Origin: Azonexus sp.
Lineage (GTDB): Bacteria > Pseudomonadota > Gammaproteobacteria > Burkholderiales > Rhodocyclaceae
Length of the DNA stretch: 64,000 bases
Reading direction: 5' to 3'
NCBI RefSeq assembly: GCF_023150235.1
Contig: NZ_JAKLLH010000016.1
Location: 1-64,000, forward strand
Translations under genes and position numbers: made by a program
Shown: piece by piece, positions 28,997-45,057 of the stretch
Numbering within the stretch: the stretch's first letter is position 1
Layout of the letters: every line of letters starts with the position of its first letter
Notes under the pieces: generated by a model
The model's input: the letters and a program-made list of their open reading frames with translations, nothing else
Told to the model about the DNA's origin: nothing
The model's database searches: none

Positions 28997-30004
28997 TTAC
29001 AGGATCAGGGTGCCGAGATACCAGGCAATGGCAGCCATCAGGGCGCTACAGGGAACGGTGAGTATCCAGGCCCAGACGATGCCGCCGGCAACTCCCCAGC
29101 GCACGCGCCGGGTGCCACGTGTCGAACCGACGCCGGCAATGGCCCCAGTAATGGTGTGGGTGGTTGAAACCGGGATGCCGAAGGCGCTGGCCATGAACAG
29201 GGTGACGGCGCCGCCGCTGTTGGCACAGAAGCCCCGAGCCTGGTTGAGCTTGGTAATACGGTTGCCCATGGTCTTGACGATGCGCCAGCCACCGAACATC
29301 GTTCCCAGGCCCATCGCGGCATAACAAGAGAAGACCACCCAGCTCGGGACCGGCTCATTGCCCTGTGAAATTCCGGCAGCGATCAGCAACATCCAGATGA
29401 TGCCTACCGTTTTTTGGGCATCGTTACCGCCATGCCCGAGACTGTAGGCGGCAGCCGAAAGCAGCTGGAAGCGGCGAAAATGTTTGTCCACCTTGCGGGC
29501 AGCCATGTTGCGACATAGCCAGGAGACGAGCACCATCAGCGCTCCACCGATCACGAAACCGAACAGTGGGGCGATGAAGATGAAGGCAATGATCTTGAGT
29601 ACTCCGGAGGTGACAAGACCGGCAAAACCAGCCTTGGCCACGGCAGCGCCAACCAGGCCGCCGACCAGCGCATGCGACGACGACGAGGGAATGCCGTAGT
29701 ACCAAGTAATCACGTTCCAGACAATGGCGCCGACCAAGGCGCCGAAAATGATGTAGTGATCGACAATGGCTGGATCGATAGTGCCCTTGCCGATGGTGGA
29801 AGCGACTTTCAACTGGAACAGGAAGTAGGCGAGAAAGTTGAAGGCCGCCGCCCAGATGACTGCCTGGTGCGGCTTGAGAACACGGGTGGAGACGATGGTG
29901 GCAATCGAGTTCGCCGCATCGTGGAAGCCGTTCATGAAATCGAACAGCAGGGCCACGACGACCAGCGTGACGACGACCCAAAGACTGATTTGCAAGGAAT
30001 CCAT
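28997..30004 (-). CDS. Inorganic phosphate transporter, PiT family
   Basis: 335 residues with about ten membrane helices; shorter than E. coli PitA but typical of the Pit proteins that pair with DUF47. The N-terminal FDFMNGFHDAANSIATIVSTR and internal GHGGNDAQKTVGIIWM are the two PiT signature repeats (GxxDAANxxAT and GxNDAQK). It should import metal-phosphate by proton symport in the inner membrane. It lies 12 bases downstream of the DUF47 gene. Confidence 0.95.
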   Translation of the reverse strand: MDSLQISLWVVVTLVVVALLFDFMNGFHDAANSIATIVSTRVLKPHQAVIWAAAFNFLAYFLFQLKVASTIGKGTIDPAIVDHYIIFGALVGAIVWNVITWYYGIPSSSSHALVGGLVGAAVAKAGFAGLVTSGVLKIIAFIFIAPLFGFVIGGALMVLVSWLCRNMAARKVDKHFRRFQLLSAAAYSLGHGGNDAQKTVGIIWMLLIAAGISQGNEPVPSWVVFSCYAAMGLGTMFGGWRIVKTMGNRITKLNQARGFCANSGGAVTLFMASAFGIPVSTTHTITGAIAGVGSTRGTRRVRWGVAGGIVWAWILTVPCSALMAAIAWYLGTLIL

Positions 30005-30016
30005 TGCGCTTCCCGC

Positions 30017-30655
30017 TCAGGAGTTTTCGAGAACGATGGCTTCGATGGTGCCGGCGACGTCCTTGCAGCGGTCGGTGACGCTTTCGAGCAGTTCGTAGAT
30101 TTCCTTCAGCTTGATCAACTGGCGGACGTCGGATTCCTCGCGGAAGAGGCGCGACATGGCTTCGCGCAGGATACGGTCGGCGTCGGATTCGAGTTCGTCG
30201 ATTTCATTGCACTTGCGCAGGATGGTCGGCGCGTTGTCCATGCTGTGCAGCAGCTTGACCACGGCCCGGACGCTGGTACAGCATTGGTCGCTGACATCGG
30301 CGAGTCGCTTGGCATCCTGCGGCACCTGCTTGATATCGTAGAGCGCCATCGACTCGGCCACGTCCTGGATTACGTCCAGGATATTGTCCATGTCACTGAT
30401 CAAGGTATGGATTTCATCCCGGTCGAACGGCGTGATGAAGGAAGTGTGCAGTTGAGCGAGCGTATCGTGCGTAATCTTGTCGGCCTCGCGCTCGAGGCGA
30501 TCGATCCGGTCGGCATGAGCCGTGGCCTTTTCCGGTGTATCGACCAGCGCATTGATCAGGGCGGACAACTCGCCGCCACCCTCGGCGATCAGGTCCGCAT
30601 GCGCGTTGAATAGATCGAAATACTTGCCCTCCTTGGGCATCAGGCGACCGAACAT
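30017..30655 (-). CDS. DUF47 (PhoU-like) partner of the Pit transporter
   Basis: 212 residues, an all-helical PhoU-like protein of the DUF47 family. It begins MFGRLMPKEGKYFDLF and contains the family's acidic metal-binding runs (DRLEREADKITHDT and NEIDELESDADRIL). It probably regulates the adjacent low-affinity phosphate transporter. Two CTGTCA(C/T) elements 22 bp apart lie just before the ATG, at Pho-box-like spacing but with a poor middle element, so PhoB control is only a possibility. Confidence 0.9.
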   Translation of the reverse strand: MFGRLMPKEGKYFDLFNAHADLIAEGGGELSALINALVDTPEKATAHADRIDRLEREADKITHDTLAQLHTSFITPFDRDEIHTLISDMDNILDVIQDVAESMALYDIKQVPQDAKRLADVSDQCCTSVRAVVKLLHSMDNAPTILRKCNEIDELESDADRILREAMSRLFREESDVRQLIKLKEIYELLESVTDRCKDVAGTIEAIVLENS

Positions 30656-30831
30656 GACAGTTCCGTTAAGTTATTGTGACAGTCAGCGATTCTAACACGC
30701 ACCCCCTTCCAGAGCCCTCCCGATCCCGGCTTCTCCGCCCTCTTCCCGCCTCTCGCTTTCGCCCAAGGAGGGGCTTTTGCCATAATCCGGCCCCGGAACC
30801 GGCCCATTGCCCGCCAGGTCGAAGCAATCTC

Positions 30832-30859
30832 TTGGCGCGGTGGACGAGACCGCTACAAT
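30832..30859 (+). promoter_or_regulatory. Sigma70-like promoter giving a probable leaderless transcript
   Basis: TTGGCG (-35) and TACAAT (-10) are separated by 16 bp. The -10 ends six bases before the ATG at 30866, so transcription should start at or within a base or two of the ATG. There is no Shine-Dalgarno sequence. Confidence 0.55.
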
Positions 30860-30865
30860 ACGCCC

Positions 30866-31198
30866 ATGCCCGACCTCGCAATTCCCGTCGATACCTTCGG
30901 CGACCCCTTCGACATCGCAAGCCTGCCCTTGCCGCGCCCCGCCGTCGGCTACGGCGTTCAGCGCCTCGATACCGACTGCCTGCTCGACCGTGGCAGCGGT
31001 CATTTCCTGCCTGTACGCGATATACGCCTGCAAGCCTGTTTCGAGACCTTTGCCGCCGCCCACGCTGCCGCCGGCATCTGGCTGCATGAAACGGCCACGC
31101 CGACAAACGACCACGATCTCGCCATCGTCCCGCTCGGCTACGACCAAGGCCTGCAACGCCCGATCCTGATCCTCGGCGTCATCCGTAGCGAACCCTGA
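30866..31198 (+). CDS. Small protein of unknown function, probably from a leaderless mRNA
   Basis: 110 residues, family not recognised. There is no signal peptide or membrane helix; it is rich in Leu, Asp, Pro and Ala. The frame is open with codon use like its neighbours. Support comes from the well-formed promoter ending at the start codon and from the lack of a competing frame. It is flanked by the divergent Pit/DUF47 operon and the long leader of deaD. Confidence 0.5.
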   Translation: MPDLAIPVDTFGDPFDIASLPLPRPAVGYGVQRLDTDCLLDRGSGHFLPVRDIRLQACFETFAAAHAAAGIWLHETATPTNDHDLAIVPLGYDQGLQRPILILGVIRSEP

Positions 31199-31506
31199 AC
31201 GAGAGGGCCGCCGCACCCCGATCACCCTCCGGCGTATCGCCGCTAGCCGTGGCGGGAAAAAAAATGTAGAATAATCAGTTCAATGCGTTGATGTTTCGCC
31301 CGCAGTCATTCCGCGCAGCCGCCGGTATCACAGGTTTTTGAGCAGGTCACACCCGCATTTACTCATTGAAGCAATCAATCATTCGTTCCCCGGCATGGCT
31401 GCGTCGGGGTCACCCAGGACGCCCGCTTGAGCGGGCCTTGTGCGCACCGACCACCGCCCTTCATCGAAGCGGGCCGTGGTCGTCGTCGTGCTGAAAGGAA
31501 ACACCG
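31199..31506 (+). other. Long untranslated leader region of deaD
   Basis: 308 bases without a gene. It contains an AT-rich patch (GGGAAAAAAAATGTAGAATAATC, about 31254-31276) that can serve as a promoter. Closer to deaD there are two strong hairpins (CCCCG...CGGGG, 31388-31409; GCCCGC-TTGA-GCGGGC, 31421-31436). A structured leader fits autoregulation or cold-shock control of DeaD/CsdA helicases, but the mechanism is inferred. GAAAGGA precedes the deaD ATG. Confidence 0.55.
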
Positions 31507-33330
31507 ATGACGACTCCCGTCGAAAGCTTTGCCGATCTCGGCCTCAGCGAATCGCTGCTGAAAACCCTCTCCGAAATCGGTTACGAAACCCCCTCGCCGA
31601 TCCAGGCGCAATGCATCCCCATCCTGCTCGACGGTCACGACATCCTCGGCATGGCGCAGACCGGCACCGGCAAGACCGCCGCCTTCGCACTGCCGCTGAT
31701 GGAAACCATCGACATCAAGGTCAATAAGCCGCAAGCGCTGATCCTGACCCCGACCCGCGAACTCGCGATCCAGGTCGCCGAAGCCCTGCAGAGCTACGCC
31801 AAGAACCTGCCCGGCTTCCACGTGCTGCCGATCTACGGTGGCCAGAGCTACACCATCCAGCTCAAGCAGCTGGCACGCGGCGCCCACGTCATCGTCGGCA
31901 CGCCGGGCCGGGTCATGGACCACCTCGAGCGCAAGACGCTCAACCTCGACAGCCTGAAGACCCTGGTCCTCGACGAAGCCGACGAAATGCTGCGCATGGG
32001 CTTCATCGACGACGTCGAGTGGATTCTCGAACGTACCCCGGAACAGCACCAGACTGCGCTGTTCTCGGCGACCATGCCCGAGCAGATCCGCCGCGTCGCC
32101 CAGAAGTATCTGGTCGAACCGCGTGAAATCAAGATCAAGGCCGCGACCGCCACGGTCGCCGCAATCCGCCAGGTGTACTGGCAGGTTTCCGGCATGCACA
32201 AGCTCGATGCGCTGACCCGCATCCTCGAAGTCGAGGAAGATTTCGACGCCGCGATCATCTTCGTCCGCACCAAGACCGCCACCGTCGAACTGGCCGACAA
32301 GCTCTCCGCCCGCGGCTACGCCGCCGCTGCGCTGAACGGCGACTTGAACCAGCAGATGCGCGAACGCGTCATCGATCAGTTGAAGTCCGGCGCGCTGGAT
32401 ATCGTCATCGCCACCGACGTCGCCGCCCGCGGCATCGACGTGCCGCGCGTCAGCCACGTCGTCAACTACGACATTCCGTACGACACCGAAGCCTACGTGC
32501 ACCGCATCGGCCGTACCGGCCGCGCCGGCCGCAACGGCAACGCGATCCTGTTCGTGGCACCGCGCGAAATCCGCATGCTGCGCACCATCGAGCGCGCCAC
32601 CCGCCAGCCGATCGCACCGCTGACCCTGCCCTCGCGCGCCGACGTCACCAACAAGCGCGTGGCTTCCTTCAAGGAAAAGATCGCCGAAGTGATGAATGCC
32701 GAGGGCCTCGATTTCTTCAGCAACATCGTTGCCCAGATTTGCGAAGAACATAACGTCGGCGCCGAGGAAGTTGCCGCCGCGCTGGCGATGATGGCGCAGG
32801 AAGGCAAGCCGCTGCAGGTCGCCGGCGAAGATCCCCCGCCGCCGCGCGCTTTCGACCGCAACGAGCGCGGCAACGACCGCCGTCCAGCCAGTTTCGGCGA
32901 CCGCGCCGAGCGCAAGCCGCGCTTCGAGCGCGATGGCGAACGCAGCGAACGCCCGCGTTTCGACGACCGGGGCGAGCGCCCGCGCCGCGAAGACCGCCCG
33001 CCCCGCCCGGCACCGGCCGGCGACATGGTCCGCTACCGGATCGATGTCGGCCGGGAGCATGGCGTCGAAGTACGCGACATCGTCGGCGCGATCGCCAACG
33101 AAGCCGGCATCGAAAGCCGCTTCATCGGCCGCATCGGTCTCTACGAGGAATCGAGCACCGTCGAACTACCGGCCGGCATGCCGCATGAAGCCGCCAATGC
33201 CCTGAAGCGCACCCGCATCCGCGGCGTGCCGATCAACCTGCGCATCGACGAAGGCCGCCCCGGCGGCGGTTTCGCACCGCGTGGCGACGGCGAACGCAAG
33301 TTCCGGAGAAAGCCGGGTAGCGATCTGTAA
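31507..33330 (+). CDS. deaD: DEAD-box ATP-dependent RNA helicase DeaD/CsdA
   Basis: 607 residues. The Q motif (TPSPIQAQCIP), Walker A (AQTGTGKTAAF), PTRELAIQ, DEAD, SAT, and the late motifs RGIDVPRVSHV and HRIGRTGRAGR are all present. After the core come a linker very rich in Arg, Asp, Glu and Phe (about 455-500) and a DbpA-like RNA-binding domain (VRYRIDVGREHGV...GVPINLRID). This layout is that of DeaD/CsdA, which acts in ribosome assembly and mRNA decay, especially in the cold. It has a long leader and its own terminator. Confidence 0.94.
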   Translation: MTTPVESFADLGLSESLLKTLSEIGYETPSPIQAQCIPILLDGHDILGMAQTGTGKTAAFALPLMETIDIKVNKPQALILTPTRELAIQVAEALQSYAKNLPGFHVLPIYGGQSYTIQLKQLARGAHVIVGTPGRVMDHLERKTLNLDSLKTLVLDEADEMLRMGFIDDVEWILERTPEQHQTALFSATMPEQIRRVAQKYLVEPREIKIKAATATVAAIRQVYWQVSGMHKLDALTRILEVEEDFDAAIIFVRTKTATVELADKLSARGYAAAALNGDLNQQMRERVIDQLKSGALDIVIATDVAARGIDVPRVSHVVNYDIPYDTEAYVHRIGRTGRAGRNGNAILFVAPREIRMLRTIERATRQPIAPLTLPSRADVTNKRVASFKEKIAEVMNAEGLDFFSNIVAQICEEHNVGAEEVAAALAMMAQEGKPLQVAGEDPPPPRAFDRNERGNDRRPASFGDRAERKPRFERDGERSERPRFDDRGERPRREDRPPRPAPAGDMVRYRIDVGREHGVEVRDIVGAIANEAGIESRFIGRIGLYEESSTVELPAGMPHEAANALKRTRIRGVPINLRIDEGRPGGGFAPRGDGERKFRRKPGSDL

Positions 33331-33405
33331 GCAGGAAGATTTCTGCCGCCATTGCGGTGAGCCCAGGGCTTGCACGCGGATGAATTCGGCAAAAATGCAA
33401 CAAGG

Positions 33406-33435
33406 GGGCCGCGCTTGCGTGGCCCTTTTCTTTTT
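33406..33435 (+). terminator. Rho-independent terminator of deaD
   Basis: GGGCCGCGC and GCGTGGCCC form a 9-bp stem with one G-T pair and a two-base loop, followed by TTTTCTTTTT. It isolates deaD from the heme-uptake-like operon. Confidence 0.85.
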
Positions 33436-33461
33436 CGGGCTTCTCATTTGCCGCCCCGAGT

Positions 33462-33480
33462 GAAATAATAACGATTCTCA
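33462..33480. promoter_or_regulatory. Fur-like box upstream of the TonB receptor operon
   Basis: GAAATAATAACGATTCTCA resembles the Fur consensus (GATAATGATAATCATTATC), with ATAAT and ATTCTC half elements. It stands out as AT-rich in a GC-rich region and lies about 75 bp before the receptor ATG. Iron-repressed expression is inferred. Confidence 0.6.
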
Positions 33481-33552
33481 AATAAATTCAGCCAGCCACC
33501 CAGCCTTCGCCCGGTAGCCAGCCAGACCGAAAAACTCGATTTGGAGGTTTCC

Positions 33553-35472
33553 ATGCACGGTTCCACCCGTTTTGGGCTGCGCGCCATCCCGTTGGCATTG
33601 CTTGGCATTTTTTCCTTTTCCGCTGCTCAGGGCGCGGATAAGACCCTCAAGGACACCGTGGTCACCGCGACCATGTCCGAACACGACACGCGCACCGCAC
33701 CGGCCTCGGTGACGGTGATCGGACGCGAGGAGATCGAGGAGCGCAACGCGGCCGATCTCCTCGACATCGTTCGCGGCGCCCCCGGCATCACCCTGACGCC
33801 GCGACAAGTCGGCGGTCGCAAGACCCTGGCGCTGCGCGGTCTGGAAGGCCGGCATACCCTGACCCTGATCGACGGTCGCCGGATTTCCCCCTCGGACGAC
33901 GTTGTCGGCCATTCGGATTACCAATATGGCTGGCTGCCGGTATCGGCCATCGAGCGGGTCGAGATCATCCGTGGTCCGATGTCCACGCTTTACGGCTCGG
34001 AAGCCCTGGGCGGGGTCGTCAACCTCATCACCCGCCAGCCCAAGGACCGCTGGATCGGCTCGATGATGCTATCGGGCAATACTCTGGGCGGTGGCAACAA
34101 GGGCGGAGACGGCCAGCGCGCCTCGCTCTTCGCCGCCGGCCCGCTGGGCGAGCGCGTTGTCCTGCGAGTCAATGCCGAAACCCAGGATCGCGACCCGATT
34201 GCCAAGAAAGAAGACCGCCGTTACTCGGAAATCGAAGGGCGCCGACAGCAGAGCTACGGCCTGGGCAGCAGCATCCGTCTCAGCGAAAACCAGAGCCTCG
34301 ACCTGCAATGGAACGGCGGCGAGGAAACCCGACGCTATGATGATGTCAGTAGCGCCAAGGTCGCCTACCAGAATATCTACGACATCGAACGCAGCCAGCG
34401 CAGCCTGGCCTGGAAGGGTGAATTCGGCAGCTGGCGGGCACAGGCCCGGGTCTACGACAGCGAAATCGACATCACCAACCGACGCACCAACGGCGTGGCC
34501 ACGACCCGGCCGCAGAATATTCGCGATGAAGTGGTCGATGGCTTCGCGGCAATCAAGCTTGGCGGCCATATCCTGACCGTCGGCGGCGAACACCGGACCG
34601 AAACGCTGAAAAACAGTGGTCTGATCGGCGGCAAGGACGACGCGAAGCACAAGGCGCTGTTCATCCAGGACGAAATCGCGCTCGGCAAGAACCTGATGCT
34701 GACCGCCGGCATCCGCAACGATCACCACGAAATCTTCGGCAACGAGGCCAGTCCGCGCGCCTACCTGGTCTGGGAAGCCAGCCCGGAACTGGTGATCAAG
34801 GGCGGCTACGGCCACGCCTTCAAGGCCCCGACCCTGAAGCAGATTTCCCCCAGCTACGTTGGCGCCGAAGGCCCCCACACCTTCCTCGGCAACGCCGGCA
34901 TCAAGCCGGAAAGCGCCGATTCCATCGAAATCGGCGCCGACTGGACGCGCGGCCCGCTCAATCTGCGCGCGACGCTGTTCCACTCCCGCGTCGAAGACCT
35001 GATCACCTACAAGCTGCTCAGCGTTTCCGGTACACGCCGCACCTACCTCTACGACAACGTCGAAAAAGCGCGCATCACCGGCCTTGAGGGCGGTTTCAAC
35101 TGGGCAATTTCTTCCAGCCTGAGTTGGGGAGCGAACCTGATTGCGCTCGACGCCAAGAACGACATTACCGGCAAGGATTTGGCCGACCGCCCCGAATTGA
35201 CGCTGACCTCGCAGCTTGACTGGCGCCTGGCCGACGGCTGGGGAGTCCGCGCCGCCGTCGAATATTACGGTCGCCAGATCGACACCACCGGGGTACGCCT
35301 GCCGGCCTACTCGGTGTGGAATGCCAGCGTCGGCAAAAAGATCGGCAAGCATCTCAGCCTGCGTGCCGGGGTCAATAACCTGACCGATGTCCGCTTGGCG
35401 GAAAAATCGCCCAACTTCGGCTATGCCGAAATGGGCCGCAATGTCTTCCTGACACTGCGCAGCGATTTCTGA
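33553..35472 (+). CDS. TonB-dependent outer-membrane receptor (heme/siderophore type)
   Basis: 639 residues; ATG at 33553 has GGAGG seven bases upstream. A signal peptide (cleavage about after AQGA) is followed by a TonB-box-like start (KDTVVTATM), a plug domain (VTVIGREEIEERNAADLLDIVRGAPG, RIDGPxS-like VEIIRGPMSTLYGSEALGGVVNLIT) and a 22-strand barrel ending with terminal Phe (LRSDF). It resembles CirA/HmuR-type receptors for catecholates or heme. A Fur-like site precedes it. It heads the operon with a chelatase-like protein, second receptor, ExbB-like and DUF2149 proteins. Confidence 0.93.
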   Translation: MHGSTRFGLRAIPLALLGIFSFSAAQGADKTLKDTVVTATMSEHDTRTAPASVTVIGREEIEERNAADLLDIVRGAPGITLTPRQVGGRKTLALRGLEGRHTLTLIDGRRISPSDDVVGHSDYQYGWLPVSAIERVEIIRGPMSTLYGSEALGGVVNLITRQPKDRWIGSMMLSGNTLGGGNKGGDGQRASLFAAGPLGERVVLRVNAETQDRDPIAKKEDRRYSEIEGRRQQSYGLGSSIRLSENQSLDLQWNGGEETRRYDDVSSAKVAYQNIYDIERSQRSLAWKGEFGSWRAQARVYDSEIDITNRRTNGVATTRPQNIRDEVVDGFAAIKLGGHILTVGGEHRTETLKNSGLIGGKDDAKHKALFIQDEIALGKNLMLTAGIRNDHHEIFGNEASPRAYLVWEASPELVIKGGYGHAFKAPTLKQISPSYVGAEGPHTFLGNAGIKPESADSIEIGADWTRGPLNLRATLFHSRVEDLITYKLLSVSGTRRTYLYDNVEKARITGLEGGFNWAISSSLSWGANLIALDAKNDITGKDLADRPELTLTSQLDWRLADGWGVRAAVEYYGRQIDTTGVRLPAYSVWNASVGKKIGKHLSLRAGVNNLTDVRLAEKSPNFGYAEMGRNVFLTLRSDF

Positions 35473-35534
35473 TCGCTCCAGCCGGCTCCCGCCACGGAGC
35501 CGGCCCCACCTTTTTCCGCAGCCCCCGACTCGTC

Positions 35535-38500
35535 ATGCACCTGTTCCGCCAGCTCTTCCTTTTTCTGGTCGCCCTATTCCTGGCGCCGTTCGCGCTCTGC
35601 GAACCGCTCCCGACCGGACCCTCCCTCCTCTTCATCGCCACGACACCGGTGCCGCCTGGAAAATTCAGGGTACTGACGGAAATTGGCCAAAAGCACGGGT
35701 TGACCGTGGAAGCCCATTTTATTGAGCGCCTGGGCGGTGAACAGGCCGCGAAACTACTCCAGAAACGCGATTTCATCGTCTTCGACACCGCTCGCAGCCA
35801 TATGCAGGAAGTGGTCAAGAACAAGCTCGGAGCAAGCGTCGAACAACTGGCGACGGCACAGCTGTGGATGAAGGACAGCGGGGCCATGGGCAAAGGTCTG
35901 CCCAAGGCGCTGGCGGACACCCTGCACGCTTATTACACCAACGGCGGGCGCAGCAACTACGAAGCCTTTTTCACCCTGCTCGCCGCTCACCTGCGCGGCC
36001 AGCCGCTGCCGGCGGTTGCCCCACCCTTCGTCTTCCCGGACGAGGCGATCTACCATCCGCGCGCACCGCAACGGGTTTTCGCCAGCCCGGCCGAGTACTT
36101 CAAATGGCGCGGCATCGCCCCCGACCAACGGCCGCCGACCGTCGCCATCGCCATGCACCAGATCTACATCGGCGCCGAACAAACAGGCTTCATCGACGAC
36201 CTGGTCGCCCGCATCGAAGCTGCCGGCGCCATCGCCCTGCCTTATTACGCCAGCGTCCTCGGCGCCCACAAGAAAATGCTGACCGTTGGCGACCGGGTCA
36301 TTGCCGACGCGGTGATCAACACCCAGATCGTGCTCGACCCCGAAGGCCGGCGTAAAGAACTGGCTGAACTCGGCATTCCGGTGGTGCACGCGCTGAGCTA
36401 CCGCAAGGGCGACGAAGCCGCCTGGCGCGCCGATCCGCAAGGCGTGCCGCTGACCGACGTGCCTTTCTATCTGGCCCAGGGCGAATACGCCGGGATCATC
36501 GACGCCATCGTCGCCCACACCGTGGACAAGGCCAGCGGCGACACCACGGTGCTGCCCGAGCAAGCCGCCACGGTGGTCAACAAGGCGCTGCGGCTGATCC
36601 GCCTGCAGCGCCTGCCGAACGGTGAAAAGAAGGTCGCGCTGCTGTTCTGGAACTACCCGCCGGGCGAAAAGAACCTCTCGGCCTCGTTCATGAACGTACC
36701 GAAGAGCTTCGAGACCACGCTCAAGGCGCTGCAAGCCGCCGGCTACGACACCCACGGCGAAAGCGAAATCACCCTGATCGGCACCCTGCAACGCTTGCTC
36801 GCCCCCTTCTACCGCGACGGGCAGCTCGCCGCCCTGCTCCGCGACGGCCTGGCCGAAAAGCTGCCGGTCGCCACCTACAAGGCCTGGCTCCAGCGCCAGC
36901 CGCCGGCGATCCAGGATGAAATCCAACAGCGCTGGGGGGCGCCGGAAAAATCGGCCATGGTGCTGGTTGACCGTGGCGAAGCCTTTTTCGTCATCCCGCG
37001 CCTGGCCGTCGGCAAGCTCGTCTTCAGCCCGCAGGCACCGCGCGGCGAACGCTGGGAGGAAAAGGAAAAAGCCCTCTACCACTCATCCAGTGCCGCCCCG
37101 TCGCACTTCTACCTGGCGCACTACCTTTGGCTGCGCGAGCAATTCAAGGCCGACGCGCTGGTGCACTACGGCACCCACGGCTCGCAGGAATGGCTGCCGG
37201 GCAAGGAACGCGGCCTGCCGGTGACCGACTACCCGCTGCTCGCGGTCGGCGACCTGCCGGTGATCTATCCCTACATTGTCGACAACATCGGCGAGGCCCT
37301 GCAGGCCAAGCGGCGCGGCCGCGCGGTGATCGTCACCCACCAGACACCGCCCTTCGCCCCGGCCGGGCTGCACGATGCGCTGACCCAGATCCACGACCTG
37401 CTGCACCAATGGCTGGCGCAGGACGACGGCGCGGTGAAGGAAAAAATTGCGGTCGACCTGAAAAAACGGGTCAAAAAGGAACGCATCGACAAGGACATGG
37501 GCTGGAACGAGGCCCGCATCGACCGGGACTTCCGCGCCTTCATCGACGAACTGCACAACCACCTGCACGAACTGGCGCAGACCGCGCAGCCGCTCGGCCT
37601 GCACAGCTTCGGTACCGCGCCGCAGGAAAAGCACCGGCTCGGCACCGTGCTGCTGATGCTGGGCAAGGGCTTCCACGAAACCGCCGCCCGCATCATGGGA
37701 GTCAAGGAAGACGATCTGGACGAGATTTTCGTCGGCGACTACACCAAACTGAGCAGCACCCCGCCGTTCCGGATGCTCGCCGACGCGCTGGCGGGCAAGA
37801 CCGCCCTGCCCGCCGAACGGGGAGGTGCCGGTAAATCGCCGGCAGAAACGGCCTTGGCCGAAAAACTCGAACAAGGCCGCCGCTGGTACGCCGACCTCGG
37901 TGCCGAAGGCGAAATCGCCGGCCTGCTTTCCGCGCTCTCCGGCCAGCACCGCCCAACCTCCTACGGCGGCGACCCGATCAAGAACCCGGACGCCCTGCCC
38001 ACCGGCCGCAACCTCTATGGTTTCGATCCCTCGCGGGTACCGACCAAGCAGGCCTGGGAAGCCGGCAAGGAAGCCGCCGATGCCTTGATCGCGGCACACA
38101 CCGCCAAAGCCGGGCGTGCGCCGAAAAAGCTCGCCTTCTCGCTGTGGTCGGTCGAAACCATGCGCCACCAAGGCATTCTCGAAGCGCAGGCACTGTGGAC
38201 GCTGGGCGTTGAACCGGTATGGGACGCCGGCGGGCGGGTCGTCGATGTCAAGCTGGTGCCGCGCGAGGCGCTCAAGCGCCCGCGTATCGACGTCGTACTC
38301 TCGGCCACCGGCCTCTACCGCGACCATTTCCCGAACGCCATGAAGCAACTGGCCAAGGCGGTCGAACTCGCCGCCCGCGCCAATGAAGCCGACAACCCGG
38401 TCTACGCCAACAGCCACGCCCTCGCCGCCCGCCTGGTCAAGCAGGGCGTGCCGGAAAAAGCCGCGCAACGCGCCGCCGAAACCCGCATCTTCTCCAACGA

Positions 38501-39575
38501 ATCCGGACGCTACGGCACCGGGCTCGACGACGCCGCACTCGCCACCGACACCTGGAAAAGCAAGGGCGAAGCCGACAAGAAGCTGGCCAATCTTTACCTG
38601 TCGCGGATGCAGCACGCCTACGGCAGCGACGAAACGACCTGGGGCAGCAAGGGCATTGCCGGTGCCGATGCGGCCGGCAACGGCACCGGCGCCACCATCA
38701 ACCTCTACGCCGAACACCTGAAGGGCACCGAAGGCGCGATCCTGTCGCGCAGTTCCAACCTCTACGGCATGCTGACCACCGACGATCCTTTCCAGTACCT
38801 CGGCGGCATCGGTGCCGCGGTGCGCGCGCTCGACGGCAAGGCGCCGGAACTGTACATCGCCAACCTACGCAACAGCGGCGGCGACGGTACCGGCGGTAAA
38901 GGCGGCGGCAAGATCGAAGGTGCCGACCAGTTCCTGGCCAAGGAACTCGCCACCCGCAACTTCCACCCCGGCTACATCCAGGGCCTGATGGCCGAAGGCT
39001 ATGCCGGCACCTTGCAGGTACTCGACGGGATCAACAACTTCACCGGCTGGACCACCGTTTCGCGCGAAATCGTCCGCGACGACCAGTGGCAGGAGTTCGT
39101 CGAGGTCTATGTCCGCGACAAGCACCGGCTCGGCTTGAAGGACTGGTTCGAGAAGAACAATCCGCACGCCTTGGCGCAAAGCATCGAGAAGATGCTGGAA
39201 ATGGCCCGCCACGGCTACTGGCAGGCCGATGCGAAAACCGTCGCCGAACTGAAGCAGCGTTACCGCGAACTGGCCAAGCGTTTTGACGTGAAGAGCGACA
39301 ACGCCACCTTCGAGAAATTCGCCGGCGAAGGCTTTGGCCTGGTGGCACCGTTACCGGCACCGGTGCCGGCGCCGACCCGGCCACAAAGCGCGGCCGACCT
39401 GATCGCTCCACCGCCACCCGTCGCGCCGCCGCAAATCACCGGCATGAAGCTGGAAAAAGTGGACAACCGGCCCCCGGAAATACCGCCGCTGGCCCTGGCC
39501 GGTAGCGGATTGCTCTTGCTCGCCACACTCGGTGGCGCGCTGACCACCGTTCGCCGCCAAAGGAAAACCGCGTGA
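35535..39575 (+). CDS. Exported, membrane-anchored CobN-like chelatase/dechelatase (HmuS-like)
   Basis: 1346 residues of the CobN/BchH/ChlH chelatase large-subunit family. The family core is visible in HYGTHGSQEWLPGKERGLP (about residues 541-560), GEALQAKRRGRAVIV, FSNESGRYGTGLDD and NFHPGYIQGLMAEGYAGTLQ. Unlike cytoplasmic CobN it has an N-terminal signal peptide (MHLFRQLFLFLVALFLAPFA, cleavage near ALC/E) and a C-terminal Pro-rich linker plus membrane helix (PPLALAGSGLLLLATLGGAL) with a basic tail. The catalytic body should therefore be periplasmic and anchored to the inner membrane. With flanking TonB receptors, an ExbB-like protein and DUF2149 it matches hmu heme operons, where HmuS removes iron from heme. 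There are no cobS, cobT or other cobalamin genes nearby. Confidence 0.88.
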   Translation: MHLFRQLFLFLVALFLAPFALCEPLPTGPSLLFIATTPVPPGKFRVLTEIGQKHGLTVEAHFIERLGGEQAAKLLQKRDFIVFDTARSHMQEVVKNKLGASVEQLATAQLWMKDSGAMGKGLPKALADTLHAYYTNGGRSNYEAFFTLLAAHLRGQPLPAVAPPFVFPDEAIYHPRAPQRVFASPAEYFKWRGIAPDQRPPTVAIAMHQIYIGAEQTGFIDDLVARIEAAGAIALPYYASVLGAHKKMLTVGDRVIADAVINTQIVLDPEGRRKELAELGIPVVHALSYRKGDEAAWRADPQGVPLTDVPFYLAQGEYAGIIDAIVAHTVDKASGDTTVLPEQAATVVNKALRLIRLQRLPNGEKKVALLFWNYPPGEKNLSASFMNVPKSFETTLKALQAAGYDTHGESEITLIGTLQRLLAPFYRDGQLAALLRDGLAEKLPVATYKAWLQRQPPAIQDEIQQRWGAPEKSAMVLVDRGEAFFVIPRLAVGKLVFSPQAPRGERWEEKEKALYHSSSAAPSHFYLAHYLWLREQFKADALVHYGTHGSQEWLPGKERGLPVTDYPLLAVGDLPVIYPYIVDNIGEALQAKRRGRAVIVTHQTPPFAPAGLHDALTQIHDLLHQWLAQDDGAVKEKIAVDLKKRVKKERIDKDMGWNEARIDRDFRAFIDELHNHLHELAQTAQPLGLHSFGTAPQEKHRLGTVLLMLGKGFHETAARIMGVKEDDLDEIFVGDYTKLSSTPPFRMLADALAGKTALPAERGGAGKSPAETALAEKLEQGRRWYADLGAEGEIAGLLSALSGQHRPTSYGGDPIKNPDALPTGRNLYGFDPSRVPTKQAWEAGKEAADALIAAHTAKAGRAPKKLAFSLWSVETMRHQGILEAQALWTLGVEPVWDAGGRVVDVKLVPREALKRPRIDVVLSATGLYRDHFPNAMKQLAKAVELAARANEADNPVYANSHALAARLVKQGVPEKAAQRAAETRIFSNESGRYGTGLDDAALATDTWKSKGEADKKLANLYLSRMQHAYGSDETTWGSKGIAGADAAGNGTGATINLYAEHLKGTEGAILSRSSNLYGMLTTDDPFQYLGGIGAAVRALDGKAPELYIANLRNSGGDGTGGKGGGKIEGADQFLAKELATRNFHPGYIQGLMAEGYAGTLQVLDGINNFTGWTTVSREIVRDDQWQEFVEVYVRDKHRLGLKDWFEKNNPHALAQSIEKMLEMARHGYWQADAKTVAELKQRYRELAKRFDVKSDNATFEKFAGEGFGLVAPLPAPVPAPTRPQSAADLIAPPPPVAPPQITGMKLEKVDNRPPEIPPLALAGSGLLLLATLGGALTTVRRQRKTA

Positions 39576-41704
39576 TGCCTCGCCTTAAGCCGATGAATGC
39601 CCTCCTGGCCCTGAGCTTCGCCAGCCTCGCCCATGCCGATCCGACGACCACGCTCAAGGAAATCACCGTCACGGCAAACAGCGAAGCGGAAGCGGAACGG
39701 CACGCGGCCGTAACCCAGAAAACCGTGATCGACCATCGGGAAATCGAGTCTCTGGGCGGGTTGACCGTGAATGAGGTGATCCGCAAGCTGCCCGGCATCG
39801 ACGCCGGTGCCCACGGTGGCGATGGTAATCCGGCAGCCAATGCGCGCGGGATGGGCCGCGATGCGGTGCAGTTCCTGGTCGATGGCGAACGTCCATCGGC
39901 CAACGCCCGCTATGCGCTGACCACCGTCGGCCGCCTGCCGTCGGGCGAGCTGGAGCGCATCGAAATCCTGCGCGGCGCCTCGGCCGAACATGGCGGCGGA
40001 GCACCGGTGACCGTCAACCTGATCATGCGCAAGGCCAGGCCGACGACATCGACGTCCATTCGTGCCGCCGCCGGCCTGCGCGGCGATGAGCCGAACGGCC
40101 AGTTCACCGCCAGCCTGGGAGGAGGAGACAAGGCGTTTTCGTGGATTCTGCCGCTGACCATCAACCACCACGCCATGCCGCTGGAGAAAACCGGCAGCCG
40201 CCAGCAGGCCAACGGCGGCGGGCGCAATCAATGGCAGGAAGAAAAGGAAAGCAGCCCTTACCGTCTCGATGAATTCATCCTCTCGCCGCGCCTGACCTGG
40301 CGTGACGGCGACGGTAGCCTGTCGCTGTGGCCCAGCGTTTATCACAACCGGGGCGAACGCAACGGCGAGATGCTGCGTTCTGCCTACGCCAACCCGGCAG
40401 CCGGCAACGGCCTTGCCGCTGATGGCAGCCGCCGGGAACGCGAGGAAAGCCAGCTGAGCATTGCCCGGGTCCGTGCCGAGGGTGAGCGGAAAACCGGCCT
40501 CGGCAAGCTCTCCGGTCGCCTCGCGCTCATGGGCGCCCGTCGCGAGCAGGACACCGAGCGGACCTGGATCGACGCCGGCGGCAAGCAGACATCGGGGCGC
40601 GAGGAGATCAGCCGTGACGAACGCGAATTCTCCTCCGCCCTGCGTCTCGACCGCCCCGCCGGCGATGGCCTGCTCTCGGCCGGCATCGAGCAGAGCTGGC
40701 ACCGGCGCGAGGAAAGCCAGCGCGCCACGGGTAGCCACATTTACAGCGGCGAGCACGATGCCCGCGCCCGGCAATGGACTGCCTGGCTGCAGCACGAAGC
40801 ACCGCTGAACAAGACGCTGACCCTGACCTACGGCCTACGTGGCGAGCATCTCACGCTGGAAAGCGGCGGCGGACAGCGGCATAGCGCCAGCCAACTCGCC
40901 CCATCGCTGGCCGGTCGCTACGAACTCGCCCCCGATCTGATCTTGCGTACCTCACTCGGAGCGGGGATAAAGGCGCCGAAATTGGAGGAGATTTCCGGGT
41001 TGACCGTGCGCGGCGCCGGTTATAACAGCCCGCTCGAAGCAGACCGTGGCGGCAACGCCAATCTGCAGGCCGAGCGCAATCTCAACTGGGAGCTGGCCGT
41101 CGACAAACACCTGCCGAACCATGCCGGCACCCTGGGGGCGAATGTCTATCTCCGCCGCACCGAGGATTTCATCGAACGCCGGACCACGCTCGAAGCTAGC
41201 CGCTGGGTCGAGCGCCCCTACAACGAAGGCACGGCCCGCCACTGGGGTCTGGAGCTCGACGCCAAGCTGAAAGGCGATGCCTTCGGCTGGAAGGGCGCCA
41301 CGATCCGCAGCCACCTGACGCTGCCCAAGGCTCGCGTCGACGATGAGCGACTGGGCGTTACCCGCAATGCCCGCGACCTGCCGCGCTACCAATGGACCCT
41401 CGGCCTCGACCAGGCACTGCCCTTCTGGCAGGCAAGCGCCGGTTTTCAGCTCATCCAGCACGGTCGCAGTCAGAGCGATATTGCCGGCGAGCTGGTAACG
41501 CGGCAGAAAGCACGTTCGCTGCTTGACGTCTATCTCACCCGTCGCCTGACGCCGCAGCTGAACCTGCGCCTGGAAGCACAGAACGTCCTGGGCAGCGCCA
41601 CCCGGCGCCTGACCAATGCCTGGGCCGGCGACGACAGTTGGTCACTGACCAGCCGCGAACGGGGCCAACGTACCGTGATGCTCTCGCTGGAGGGCAAGTG
41701 GTAG
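39575..41704 (+). CDS. Second TonB-dependent receptor of the heme-uptake-like operon
   Basis: 709 residues; ATG at 39575 overlaps the chelatase stop (TGATG). A signal peptide is cleaved about after LAHA, followed by the TonB-box-like LKEITVTAN, a plug domain (VNEVIRKLPGIDAG, LERIEILRGASAEHGGGAPVTVNLIM) and a barrel. It is divergent from the first receptor, and the plug signature is shorter than in CirA. Two receptors bracketing the CobN-like gene suggest two ligands or two forms of a tetrapyrrole. The carboxy end is LEGKW, so it lacks the common terminal Phe but ends in an aromatic residue. Confidence 0.9.
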   Translation: MPRLKPMNALLALSFASLAHADPTTTLKEITVTANSEAEAERHAAVTQKTVIDHREIESLGGLTVNEVIRKLPGIDAGAHGGDGNPAANARGMGRDAVQFLVDGERPSANARYALTTVGRLPSGELERIEILRGASAEHGGGAPVTVNLIMRKARPTTSTSIRAAAGLRGDEPNGQFTASLGGGDKAFSWILPLTINHHAMPLEKTGSRQQANGGGRNQWQEEKESSPYRLDEFILSPRLTWRDGDGSLSLWPSVYHNRGERNGEMLRSAYANPAAGNGLAADGSRREREESQLSIARVRAEGERKTGLGKLSGRLALMGARREQDTERTWIDAGGKQTSGREEISRDEREFSSALRLDRPAGDGLLSAGIEQSWHRREESQRATGSHIYSGEHDARARQWTAWLQHEAPLNKTLTLTYGLRGEHLTLESGGGQRHSASQLAPSLAGRYELAPDLILRTSLGAGIKAPKLEEISGLTVRGAGYNSPLEADRGGNANLQAERNLNWELAVDKHLPNHAGTLGANVYLRRTEDFIERRTTLEASRWVERPYNEGTARHWGLELDAKLKGDAFGWKGATIRSHLTLPKARVDDERLGVTRNARDLPRYQWTLGLDQALPFWQASAGFQLIQHGRSQSDIAGELVTRQKARSLLDVYLTRRLTPQLNLRLEAQNVLGSATRRLTNAWAGDDSWSLTSRERGQRTVMLSLEGKW

Positions 41705-41789
41705 CCATGTCCCCCTCTGCCTCATCCGCGTAAAAACCACTTTTTTCCAACTTCATATCCCCAACATTGCTTTCACTGGAGTTATCGCC

Positions 41790-42275
41790 ATGCAACCCAA
41801 CATGATCGAACTGTCGATGTACGAAATTTCACAGTTCTTCCTCTTTCCCACCCTGCTGCTGATTGCCGCGCTCTTTCTCTACGCCTTCTGGGTCCTCGGC
41901 GAATTCGTGCTGCTGGCCTGGTATCGCCGCCAGGGCAAGGGGCGGGCACTGCTTGCCGAATTTCGCCGCAATTCCGGGTTGACCGTGGATGAGCTGGACC
42001 TGATCGCCCACCGGCATCTCGAAGCCCCGCGCATCGCCAGCCGGGTGACGCCCATGCTCGGCCTGGTCGCCACCATGATTCCCATGGGGCCGGCACTGAA
42101 ATCGCTCTCCGACGGCAATCTGGCCAGCGTTTCGCAAAATCTGACCATTGCCTTCTCCGCCGTCATCCTGGCGCTGATCGCCGCTTCGATCACCTACTGG
42201 GTGGTCAATGTGCGCCGTCGCTGGCTGGCCGAGGAAATCGTCGAGATCGAAACGCTGCGGGAGCAAACCGCATGA
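41790..42275 (+). CDS. MotA/TolQ/ExbB-family proton channel protein
   Basis: 161 residues with three membrane helices. The conserved pair of helices TPMLGLVATMIPMGPALKSL and IAFSAVILALIAASITYWV matches the MotA/TolQ/ExbB domain (TP.LGLLGTV.GM...L). GGAG precedes the ATG. It overlaps the DUF2149 gene by four bases. Together they probably form an energising ExbB/ExbD-like pair for the operon's TonB receptors or chelatase, corresponding by position to HmuU/HmuV of hmu operons. Confidence 0.85.
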   Translation: MQPNMIELSMYEISQFFLFPTLLLIAALFLYAFWVLGEFVLLAWYRRQGKGRALLAEFRRNSGLTVDELDLIAHRHLEAPRIASRVTPMLGLVATMIPMGPALKSLSDGNLASVSQNLTIAFSAVILALIAASITYWVVNVRRRWLAEEIVEIETLREQTA

Positions 42276-42625
42276 GCCTGAAACTACTGCACGAAACCGA
42301 GACCGAAGACCCGATCCTCTCGGTAGTTAACCTGATCGACATCTTCCTGGTGATCATCGCCGCACTGCTGATTACCGTGGCGCAGAACCCACTGATCAAT
42401 CCCTTCAACAAGCAGGACGTAACGGTAATTACCGACCCCGGCAAACCAAGCATGGAAGTCACGATCAAGAAGGGCGAAAAGATCGAAAAATACAAGGCCA
42501 ATGGCAGCATCGGCAGCGGCGACGGCGAAAAGGCCGGGGTGGCCTACCGGATGAAGGACGGCTCGATGGTCTACGTACCGGAAGGCGAGACCCCCGCCTC
42601 GGCGCCTGCGCTCGCCGGACAATAA
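42272..42625 (+). CDS. DUF2149 membrane protein (ExbD-like partner)
   Basis: 117 residues: one N-terminal membrane helix (LIDIFLVIIAALLITVA) preceded by a DPILSVVNLID segment and followed by a periplasmic domain. The arrangement is like ExbD/TolR, which have a membrane aspartate; here Asp23 sits at the helix start. DUF2149 genes typically accompany CobN-like and MotA/ExbB-like genes. The ATGA overlap with the preceding gene shows coupling. The C-terminus is Ala/Pro-rich. Confidence 0.82.
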   Translation: MSLKLLHETETEDPILSVVNLIDIFLVIIAALLITVAQNPLINPFNKQDVTVITDPGKPSMEVTIKKGEKIEKYKANGSIGSGDGEKAGVAYRMKDGSMVYVPEGETPASAPALAGQ

Positions 42626-42675
42626 GCGAGGCAGCGTAAAATGGCGGGCCAAGCGAATTTCCGCGAGCCCGCTGC

Positions 42676-43842
42676 ATGCTGCCCTCCTCCCCGCTACCGA
42701 TGAACAAGGAAGCCCCGCCTCAACCGGCTTCCGCCGCCATTCCACTATTCCTTCCGCAACTCGCCACCCTGCGCGAATGGCTCCGCCGGCATGGCGCCCG
42801 GACCTGCCACGAAGAGCGCGTGCTGCGCGCCTGGTGCCAGGTCCGCTCACTCGACAATCGCCACAGCGCCAGCGAAAACTTCCTGCCGCTGGCGCTGCGC
42901 GGCGCTCTGCCGGACATTGAGGCACAACTTGAAGGCCTCGCCCGGGTCGTCTCCGAACACCCCGGCGAAGACGGCTCGGCCCGGCTGCTGGTCGGCCTGG
43001 CCGACGGCCAGACGGTCGAAAGCGTGCTCCTGCCGCGCGACGGCGTCTGCGTCTCGACCCAGGTCGGCTGCGCCGTCGGCTGCGTTTTCTGCATGACCGG
43101 CAAGGACGGCCTGTTGCGCCAGCTCGGCAGCGCCGAAATCGTCGCCCAGGTGGTGCTGGCGCGGCGCCGGCGGCCGGTCAAGAAAGTGGTGTTCATGGGC
43201 ATGGGCGAGCCGGCGCACAACCTCGACAACGTGCTTGAAGCCATCGACTTCCTCGGCACTCTCGGCGGCATCGGCCACAAGAACCTGGTTTTCTCGACCG
43301 TCGGCGACCCGCGTGTTTTCGAGCGCCTCGGCCAGGGTCCGGTCAAGCCGGCGCTGGCACTGTCGCTGCACAGCACCCGCGCCGAGCTGCGCGCCGAGTT
43401 GCTGCCGCGTGCGCCACGAATGACGCCGGAAGAACTGGTTGCTGCCGGCGAAGCCTACGCCCGCGCCACCGGCTATCCGATCCAGTATCAATGGACGCTG
43501 ATCGACGGGGTCAATGACAGCGAGGAGGAGCTGGAAGGCATCGTCCGCCTGCTCTCCGGCAAGTACGCACTGATGAACATGATTCCCTACAACAGCGTAG
43601 CCGCCCTGCCCTACCGCCGCCCGGACCCGGAAAAAGCCCGCGCCATCGCCCGCTGGCTGCACGAGCGGCGCATCCTGACCAAGCTGCGCAACTCCGCCGG
43701 CCAGGATATCGACGGCGGCTGCGGCCAGCTGCGGGCGCGAATCACGGTCGACCGCCATATCGCGGCAAAATCACGCCGCCAACCCGGCACGACGAGCACC
43801 GATGATTGCCAGGCGTCGTTACCTGGCGCATCGCAACATTAG
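42676..43842 (+). CDS. RlmN/Cfr-family radical SAM methyltransferase (RlmN paralogue)
   Basis: 388 residues. The radical-SAM motif C-X3-C-X2-C is at Cys132, Cys136 and Cys139 (GCAVGCVFCMTG). The methyl-carrying cysteine near the C-terminus is visible in GGCGQLRA, and the FMGMGEPAHNLDNV and LALSLHS blocks match RlmN. It should methylate C2 of an adenine in RNA, but the N-terminal 80 residues are atypical and the canonical rlmN is usually elsewhere, so the target is uncertain. The first ATG is used; an ATG at 42700 is possible. The C-terminal tail contains a copy of the iterated palindrome encoding TVDR. Confidence 0.85.
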   Translation: MLPSSPLPMNKEAPPQPASAAIPLFLPQLATLREWLRRHGARTCHEERVLRAWCQVRSLDNRHSASENFLPLALRGALPDIEAQLEGLARVVSEHPGEDGSARLLVGLADGQTVESVLLPRDGVCVSTQVGCAVGCVFCMTGKDGLLRQLGSAEIVAQVVLARRRRPVKKVVFMGMGEPAHNLDNVLEAIDFLGTLGGIGHKNLVFSTVGDPRVFERLGQGPVKPALALSLHSTRAELRAELLPRAPRMTPEELVAAGEAYARATGYPIQYQWTLIDGVNDSEEELEGIVRLLSGKYALMNMIPYNSVAALPYRRPDPEKARAIARWLHERRILTKLRNSAGQDIDGGCGQLRARITVDRHIAAKSRRQPGTTSTDDCQASLPGASQH

Positions 43843-43849
43843 CGCCAGC

Positions 43850-44017
43850 ATGCTCTCCTGCCACGACCTGATCGATATCCTGCGGCACAAGCTGCCCAGC
43901 AAAATCAAAACCGACGACGATATGGCGGAGATGATCACAGAACGCCATCGACAACGACTTGAGGCCGTGCAATCTGCTGACGAAAATCAGGCCAAAACCC
44001 TCGGGGCATCAAACTGA
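43850..44017 (+). CDS. Doubtful small ORF after the RlmN-like gene
   Basis: 55 residues (MLSCHDLIDILRHKL...), amphipathic with many charged residues and no recognised family. No ribosome-binding site is evident. It fills the gap between the RlmN-like and PACE genes. An antisense frame of similar length also exists, so this is weakly supported. Confidence 0.2.
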   Translation: MLSCHDLIDILRHKLPSKIKTDDDMAEMITERHRQRLEAVQSADENQAKTLGASN

Positions 44018-44107
44018 TGCCGAATCCGACAAAGTAGAATCAACAATCCGTCACAGACCAGGCCCTGTCGATCCGTCAGGCTCGTCCCTTTGCCCGCCCC
44101 GCTTTTC

Positions 44108-44551
44108 ATGTCGCCCTCACCCCAACTCCGCAGCCTGCCCGACCGCATCCGCCAGGTGGCACTGTTTGAACTTGGCGGTCTGCTGCTGATCACCCCGCCC
44201 TTCATCTGGCTGAGCGGCATGCACGCCGGCGAATCGCTGCTGCTGCTGGCCCTCGTCGCGCTGCTCGCGGCGCTGTGGAACGCCGCCTACAACACCGGTT
44301 TCGACTGGCTCGAAGGCCGCCTCACTGGCCGACCGGCCGACCGGCGTCCGGTGTTCTGGCGGGCGGTGCACGCCATCGGTTTCGAGGCCGGCCTGCTGCT
44401 CGCCAGCCTGCCGCTGATCGTCTGGCTGACCGACATGGGCTGGCTCGAAGCCCTGATCGCCGACATCGGCCTGGCGCTCGCCTACGTCGTCCATGCCTTT
44501 TTCTTCAACCTGGCTTACGACCGGATCTTTCCCATCGCCAACGAGATATGA
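44108..44551 (+). CDS. PACE-family efflux transporter (AceI-like)
   Basis: 147 residues with four membrane helices in two bacterial-transmembrane-pair repeats. The AALWNAAYNTGFDWLEGR and HAIGFEAGLLLASLPLIVWLTDMGWLEAL stretches and the end FNLAYDRIFP match the PACE family, which exports biocides such as chlorhexidine and diamines by proton antiport. The membrane glutamate (FELGG/GFEAG) fits. ATG at 44108 is used; a TTG 18 bases earlier is the alternative. The ribosome-binding site is weak. Confidence 0.85.
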   Translation: MSPSPQLRSLPDRIRQVALFELGGLLLITPPFIWLSGMHAGESLLLLALVALLAALWNAAYNTGFDWLEGRLTGRPADRRPVFWRAVHAIGFEAGLLLASLPLIVWLTDMGWLEALIADIGLALAYVVHAFFFNLAYDRIFPIANEI

Positions 44552-44607
44552 GCGCGGCCCCGCCACGAATCCTGTAAAATCGCGCGTTTTATCGGACGAC
44601 CGGCAGC

Positions 44608-45057
44608 ATGAGCATCACCGTCAACAAGAAGGCCTTTCACGACTACTTCGTCGAAGAGAAGTACGAGGCTGGCATTGCCTTGCAGGGGTGGGAAGTCAAG
44701 GCGATCCGCGCCGGCCGGATGAACATCAAGGAATCCTACGTCGTCATCAGGAACGGCGAGATTTTCCTGATCGGCATGCACATCACCCCGCTGCCGACCG
44801 CCTCGACCCACGTCGATCCCGATCCGACCCGGACCCGCAAACTCCTGCTGCACGCCGCCGAGATCAACAAACTGATCGGCAAGGTCGAACGTTCCGGCTA
44901 CGCGCTGCTGCCCATCGACCTGCATTACACGCGCGGCCGGATCAAGCTCGAAGTCGGCCTGGCCAAGGGCAAGAAGCAGCACGACAAGCGCCACGACGCG
45001 GCCGACAAGGATGCCAAGCGCGAAGCCCAGCGCGCGATGAAGGAGCGCCAGCGCTAA
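44608..45057 (+). CDS. smpB: SsrA-binding protein SmpB
   Basis: 149 residues. It binds tmRNA and mediates trans-translation on stalled ribosomes. Family motifs [41 protein letters not shown], and the basic tail [20 protein letters not shown] are all present. A TGTAAAAT -10-like element lies about 30 bases upstream. The tmRNA gene itself is not in the window. Confidence 0.97.

Follow-up and report, generated by a model that had tools for sequence, protein, structure and literature searches.

An operon with a Fur-like site and a predicted exported CobN-like protein in Azonexus sp., a candidate for heme-iron acquisition

Analysis of a 64,000-nucleotide stretch of Azonexus sp. (positions 1 to 64,000 of contig NZ_JAKLLH010000016.1, assembly GCF_023150235.1; hereafter the window) revealed an operon of five adjacent plus-strand open reading frames (ORFs) at 33541-42625, which would serve the Fur-controlled acquisition of iron from heme or another iron-tetrapyrrole by oxygen-independent dechelation outside the cytoplasm. 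We give this reading a probability of about 0.6. Its support comes mainly via relatives of the operon, and from them we infer both the dechelation and the substrate. According to the ORF list and family searches, the genes encode, in order, a TonB-dependent receptor, a protein of the CobN/Mg-chelatase family, a second TonB-dependent receptor, a MotA/TolQ/ExbB-family protein and a DUF2149 protein (Pfam E-values of 2.6e-296, 8.5e-7 and 6.7e-29 for CobN-Mg_chel, MotA_ExbB and DUF2149; plug and barrel domains are present in both TonB proteins), just where an earlier note, made from the sequence alone, had placed five rightward genes. The heme-uptake role proposed in that note stands in part: the Fur-like site, the grouping with HmuS, the gene order, the presence of FeoB and the heme markers in relatives agree with it, and the identity of the CobN-like protein with HmuS does not hold. 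The operon is real and probably mislabelled, and it is best interpreted as acquiring heme iron through an HmuS-like protein other than HmuS.

The second gene (35535-39575, plus strand) encodes the CobN-like protein, a chelatase-superfamily member of 1346 amino acids and predicted dechelatase. Judged by hydropathy only, it has a hydrophobic export signal at about residues 1-22 (35535-35600) and a single C-terminal membrane segment (windows starting at 1316-1321; anchor at about residues 1316-1337, 39480-39545) followed by RRQRK, so the body of the protein should be periplasmic, which supports the exported, membrane-anchored protein of the earlier note. By the same measure, the N-terminal limit was passed by 76 and the C-terminal limit by 81 of 91 family members, while of the 19 further CobN/BchH-type proteins that the class search supplied one (L028) passed the C-terminal limit and five the N-terminal limit; because of these five, the N-terminal measure alone fails to separate the two sets. 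The best solved relatives by phmmer are HmuS (390 bits), CobN (353 bits) and ChlH (344 bits). In a FastTree phylogeny of 117 proteins, from which CobN fragments shorter than 1000 amino acids were left out, HmuS and the exported proteins form one group (local support 0.956), apart from the CobN and BchH references, and the phylogenetic check proposed earlier came out in favor of the grouping with HmuS. The branching order just inside this node is weak (support 0.151), and the window's protein belongs to a 35-member clade with support of 1.0. Structure prediction, also proposed as a check, recovered the superfamily fold without discriminating HmuS from CobN: an AlphaFold model of residues 25-1224, built from 28 sequences (pLDDT 89.2), matched Mtb CobN, HmuS and ChlH in Foldseek (TMq 0.81, 0.78 and 0.71), so the fold cannot decide between the three.

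The arrangement resembles the hmu operon of Bacteroidota, in which HmuS is an exported, anchored protein of CobN-like fold (PMC12583661; PDB 9d26; papers are cited here for the passages available from them). As in that operon, a TonB receptor, an ExbB-like protein (HmuU) and a DUF2149 protein (HmuV) accompany the CobN-like gene, and the core order equals that of two annotated hmu operons, as the comparison in the earlier note anticipated. Unlike the Bacteroidota operon, the one in the window lacks an HmuY or HmuT gene and has a second receptor. The CobN-like protein is 27% identical to two plasmid-borne hmu-operon homologues. HmuS releases protoporphyrin and Fe(II) from heme in an NADH-dependent manner, and change of its His-538, located in the family motif H-x-G-(T/A)-H-G, to alanine abolishes turnover (PMC12583661). 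The equivalent of this catalytic residue is kept as His-548 in HYGTHG (codon at 37176-37178, plus strand). A related case is the BtuS family, which PMC6460266 traces to a proposal by Rodionov et al. 2003; a Bacteroides fragilis double mutant of BtuS1 and BtuS2 grew poorly with heme as the sole iron source (PMC6460266). BtuS1 and BtuS2 are Bacteroidota proteins and were set against the window by description only.

The label that the gene carries points elsewhere. With 1392 bits, the protein passes the cut-off (1248) of NCBIfam NF004644, labelled cobaltochelatase subunit CobN, and it is the single PF02514 match in a genome that contains the cobalamin genes CobB, CobO and CbiD. That it is the CobN subunit of a B12 cobaltochelatase is very improbable in our estimate. 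CobN and ChlH/BchH are cytoplasmic proteins driven by AAA+ partners. The protein shares with them the fold, the motif histidine and, like most CobN-type proteins of the tree, the residues Asp and Gln at the metal site; unlike them, it is predicted from hydropathy to be exported and anchored, adjoins ExbB and DUF2149, and lies outside the CobN references in the tree. What was found is a predicted exported CobN-like protein with an adjacent ExbB-DUF2149 cassette of the hmu/BtuS kind, and among the features of CobNST, membership in NF004644 was found and a cytoplasmic location, judged by hydropathy only, was not. The CobT partner is missing from the genome (0 matches to PF06213; CobS was not searched). 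CbiD marks the early-cobalt B12 route, which does not use CobN; because CbiD, CobB and CobO are present and CobT is absent, B12 is probably made by this route without CobN. The absence of cobalamin genes reported earlier thus holds within the window and fails genome-wide. No Rfam element, such as a cobalamin riboswitch, was matched in 30000-45000.

The second line of evidence for the heme-iron reading is regulatory. A Fur-box-like operator at 33466-33480 (no strand assigned), which agrees with 11 of the 14 positions of TGATAATnATTATCA, lies 72 nt before the ATG of the first receptor gene. It bears out the Fur-like site of the earlier note, being the sole match with three or fewer mismatches in the 64 kb (0.19 expected), and 17 of 100 shuffles contained at least one such match somewhere. 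For related loci, sites were scored against what we take to be the Fur and Zur consensus strings, with thresholds of at least 11/14 positions for Fur-like and at least 10/11 for Zur-like sites, and each locus was typed by the residue aligned with position 1084 of the window's protein, which gave 72 Asp-type loci, the window's type, and 19 His-type loci. Fur-like sites occur ahead of 33/72 Asp-type versus 1/19 His-type loci (32/70 versus 1/19 with near-identical loci counted once, other counts unchanged), and Zur-like sites ahead of 1/72 versus 7/19. Among intergenic regions 80 nt or longer, Fur-like sites were found in 28 of 68 Asp-type, 1 of 15 His-type and 13 of 380 control regions, and Zur-like sites in 1, 6 and 6 of them, respectively. 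When each of 110 regions was simply shuffled once, a Fur score of 11 was reached once and a Zur score of 10 never. Within the 35-member clade of the window, 16 loci have a Fur-like site. The sole Fur-scoring His-type locus is L088, whose site may be due to chance. The sister clade combines Zur-like sites with His/Glu at the metal site, and heme markers were not found in it. One locus inside this clade, L093 from Lampropedia, carries the Asp/Gln pair, which is a possible reversal.

This split also bears on the uptake of another metal or metallophore (zinc, nickel or cobalt), with the CobN-like protein stripping or holding the metal in the periplasm, a reading that we regard as unlikely. Like the window, Pseudomonas aeruginosa has TonB receptor, CobN-like and ExbD-like genes in a metal-regulated operon (PA1922-PA1925), which is Zur-controlled, linked to zinc and rises 45-147 fold when znuA is mutated (PMC4542158); within its genus, P. 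aeruginosa seems to be alone in placing PA1922 under Zur control (PMC10393844). The comparison with PA1923 was made by description only, and no Pseudomonas relatives were found among 40 listed of 150 plasmid records or 22 rows of a second search. Besides the seven His-type relatives with Zur-like sites, one relative lies near cobamide genes, one branch lies beside CobD/CobO-family genes, and in Runella (L037, 3110-13827) a receptor-ExbB-DUF2149-CobN set within a NiFe-hydrogenase maturation cluster suggests nickel. Unlike the PA1922-type cassette, the window has a Fur-like site and no Zur-like site at 10/11 or more in its upstream region (best score 9/11), it has Asp/Gln and not His/Glu, and it groups with the loci carrying ChaN described below. 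L051, alone among Asp-type loci in having a Zur-like site at the threshold, has a Fur-like one alongside. For 12 of the 19 His-type loci a Zur-like site was not found at 10/11 or more, and a pattern search of the upstream regions scanned found no NikR-type sites.

Heme markers are concentrated in the same Asp-type loci. In one cluster of neighboring genes from 11 loci, all 11 genes matched ChaN/Cofac_haem_bdg of Pfam, and all 11 loci belong to the 35-member clade of the window. In a second cluster from nine other Asp-type loci (eight if the near-identical L005 and L076 are counted once), 7 of 9 genes matched Pfam HmuY, the members in L005 and L103 being short pieces. Together, a gene of the ChaN or HmuY cluster is present in 20/72 Asp-type versus 0/19 His-type loci. 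The earlier statement that there is no hemophore gene is right for this operon and wrong for related loci, in which HmuY-family genes occur. Receptors were sampled as the nearest within four genes upstream, and were found for 48/72 Asp-type loci (nine opposite-strand ones kept) and 12/19 His-type loci (the opposite-strand one of L115 excluded afterwards). TIGR01785 and TIGR01786, models of heme/hemoglobin receptors, were each matched by 25/48 Asp-type receptors at E ≤1e-94, which by extrapolation is about the curated cut-offs of the two models; at that limit 0/11 His-type receptors matched them and 9/11 matched CirA.

The first receptor gene of the window was listed as an ORF with a TTG start (33541-35472, plus strand), and its start is better read as the ATG at 33553 (33553-35472) because GGAGG is present at 33543-33547. 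In its subfamily (>350 bits), His-446, numbered from the TTG start, is kept in 11/12 Asp-type versus 0/9 His-type loci, and His-425 in 10/12 versus 0/9. His-446 sits between FKAP and NPNL-type boxes, and heme receptors conserve His-128 and His-461 plus FRAP and NPNL motifs (PMC6449446). The best model of this receptor is the catecholate siderophore receptor CirA (298 bits, under the cut-off of 745). This, together with the resemblance of the Asp/Gln pair to CobN references, would fit the removal of iron by the CobN-like protein from a ferric siderophore or a modified iron-tetrapyrrole in place of heme. Such a substrate appears less likely still than another metal, given the two receptor histidines, the ChaN, HmuY and heme-type receptors in relatives, and the textbook observation that superfamily members of known substrate act on tetrapyrroles.

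Several observations weigh against heme-iron acquisition by an HmuS-like protein. The modelled fold is as near to CobN as to HmuS, and the metal-site pair matches CobN in the alignment: HmuS has His-1209 and Glu-1212 in LSLDHxxEFMGG, Met-79 and His-254 as second-heme ligands, and a methionine-rich insertion as part of its definition (PMC12583661), whereas in the window's protein LTTDDPFQYLGG holds Asp-1084 and Gln-1087 (codons at 38784-38795, plus strand). Another residue occupies the position aligned with His-254, Met-79 was not found, which the weak alignment of the head domain makes less sure, and the insertion was not found either, its region having 3 Met/100 residues compared with 31 Met/253 in L120 and 8 Met/148 in L119. 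Because these features were not found, with His-538 alone kept, the protein is not HmuS by the published definition. The B. fragilis btuS1 btuS2 double mutant still made protoporphyrin from heme (PMC6460266). With 197 bits on TIGR01785 (E 4.8e-58), receptor 1 stays below the cut-off of 317, receptor 2 scores 105 bits, and no ChaN gene was found in the host genome, so the heme link rests on kinship. The histidine mark is not general, since no histidine was seen from one box to the other in the inspected stretches of three receptors that match the heme models (L048, L054 and L075). Finally, the Fur-like site carries three mismatches, 39/72 Asp-type loci have no such site at 11/14 or more, and because the related loci share descent they are not independent samples, nor are the Fur and Zur counts independent trials.

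In the heme-iron reading, one or both TonB receptors would bring heme into the periplasm, where the CobN-like protein, tethered to the inner membrane with its body on the periplasmic side, would bind it, free Fe(II) and leave the porphyrin. FeoB, found in the genome with FeoB_N, Gate and FeoB_C domains, could then carry the freed iron into the cytoplasm. A route distinct from heme oxygenase, as proposed earlier, fits the genome, in which PF01126 was not found (other heme-degrading families were not searched). ExbB and DUF2149 would together be a proton-driven unit dedicated to the CobN-like protein or to a receptor.

The ExbB/MotA-family proton channel protein (HmuU-like; 41790-42275, plus strand) and the DUF2149 protein (HmuV-like; 42272-42625, plus strand) are regular companions of the CobN-like genes. 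Because mechanical gene calls missed or fused genes (e.g., L043, L053 and L108), the two were recounted by profile on six frames, with profiles built from the same loci as counted. On the CobN strand and within a distance of 6 kb, both are present in 61 of the 64 loci whose two flanks each exceed 4.5 kb, and the count over every locus examined, including two hmu operons, is 83/93. The three exceptions among the long-flanked loci are L083, L106 and L038; in L083 and L106, as well as in L089, which has a shorter flank, DUF2149 is found elsewhere in the genome. In the class, DUF2149 occurs in 21 of 369 genomes, 20 of them above the cut-off, and all 20 genes lie on the same contig as a CobN-family match and at most 4 kb from it (in G066 on the opposite strand). 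Among plasmids, 10 of 11 DUF2149 records have a CobN-like gene within 4 kb. A plasmid of Paracoccus alcaliphilus has a DUF2149-like frame after repABC (L138, 4280-4576), with no CobN-like annotation in 12.6 kb.

This company of exported CobN-like genes (61/64 loci and all 20 DUF2149 genes) suggests a proton-driven motor. We tentatively propose, as a possibility short of an even chance, that ExbB-DUF2149 is a proton-motive-force motor acting on the CobN-like protein, one core being re-aimed at iron/heme, zinc, cobalt or nickel; the re-aiming, by a swapped receptor, regulator and two metal-site residues, belongs to the same joint proposal and is held just as loosely. The pair would then replace the AAA+ subunits (ChlI/ChlD, CobS/CobT), since the periplasm has no ATP. 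Asp-23 of DUF2149 is invariant in 55 aligned rows and nearly invariant in 64, and it lies in a membrane helix, the only part that aligns with ExbD (hhalign E 6.6e-4, probability 27%). The AlphaFold model of DUF2149 is poor (pLDDT 65, pTM 0.27), so the likeness to ExbD rests on this profile alignment of the helix. In Trichlorobacter (L036, 3489-14898), ExbB-DUF2149 occurs downstream of cobamide genes together with separate ExbB, ExbD and TonB genes, an arrangement suggesting that the pair is something other than the TonB motor. Methanosarcina acetivorans, used as a control genome, matches both DUF2149 (PF09919) and the CobN family. It is an archaeon without an outer membrane, so the two families there would misfit a role with TonB receptors. 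The HmuS paper places HmuU and HmuV alongside HmuR in heme import (PMC12583661), and in P. gingivalis HmuV is described as having no homology to known families, and HmuT, HmuU and HmuV as possibly affecting HmuS (PMC13227078). No statement of ExbB-DUF2149 as the drive of a chelatase was found in the literature passages available.

Relatives are patchily distributed. A search of the plasmid collection gave 150 records. In 49 of them a single place spans 80% or more of the query, and the best, from Diaphorobacter, reaches 62%. A contig scan gave at least 595 matching stretches, 575 of which encode a relative, and the best 80 loci were kept; the closest among the matches listed are from an uncultured betaproteobacterium (82%), Dechloromonas (76%) and Azonexus (74%, partial). 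No relatives on viral contigs were confirmed in one scan. Two pairs of loci are near-identical (L005/L076 and L034/L085), and counts without doubles hardly change. Class-wide, 7/369 genomes pass NF004644 and 41/369 have some match, and in the window's genus 19/60 pass and 25/60 match, so the trait is patchy; a few genomes have two copies. All seven genomes above the NF004644 cut-off in the class sample also have DUF2149. Because this model takes in DUF2149-linked exported proteins, public annotations resting on it may be wrong. In a Variovorax-rich branch (L096, L098, L099, L104, L107, L111 and L112), neighboring genes fall in clusters with representatives that match the CobD/CbiB, CobO and nitroreductase families, and the exported chelatase-like protein of this branch may serve cobalt or cobamide uptake.

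In the operon itself, the second receptor gene (39572-41704, plus strand; tblastn relatives above 150 bits in eight other loci) overlaps the end of the CobN-like gene by 4 nt, and the ExbB and DUF2149 genes overlap by the same length. A further gene, which we take to be rlmN-like, begins 50 nt past DUF2149 (42676-43842), and co-transcription is possible.

No Fur-controlled exported CobN-like operon of Proteobacteria was found in the titles and abstract openings that made up the literature covered, most subscription papers lying outside its scope. If the heme-iron reading is true, oxygen-independent recovery of iron from heme would be an accessory trait scattered patchily over many Proteobacteria and masked by the cobaltochelatase label, and not a speciality of Bacteroidota. 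The Fur/Zur split, with its matching change at two metal-site residues, would offer a natural experiment on metal choice in the superfamily. Furthermore, the tie of DUF2149 to exported CobN-like proteins would allow a direct test of what powers a dechelatase without ATP, a question left by the HmuS papers in the passages available from them.

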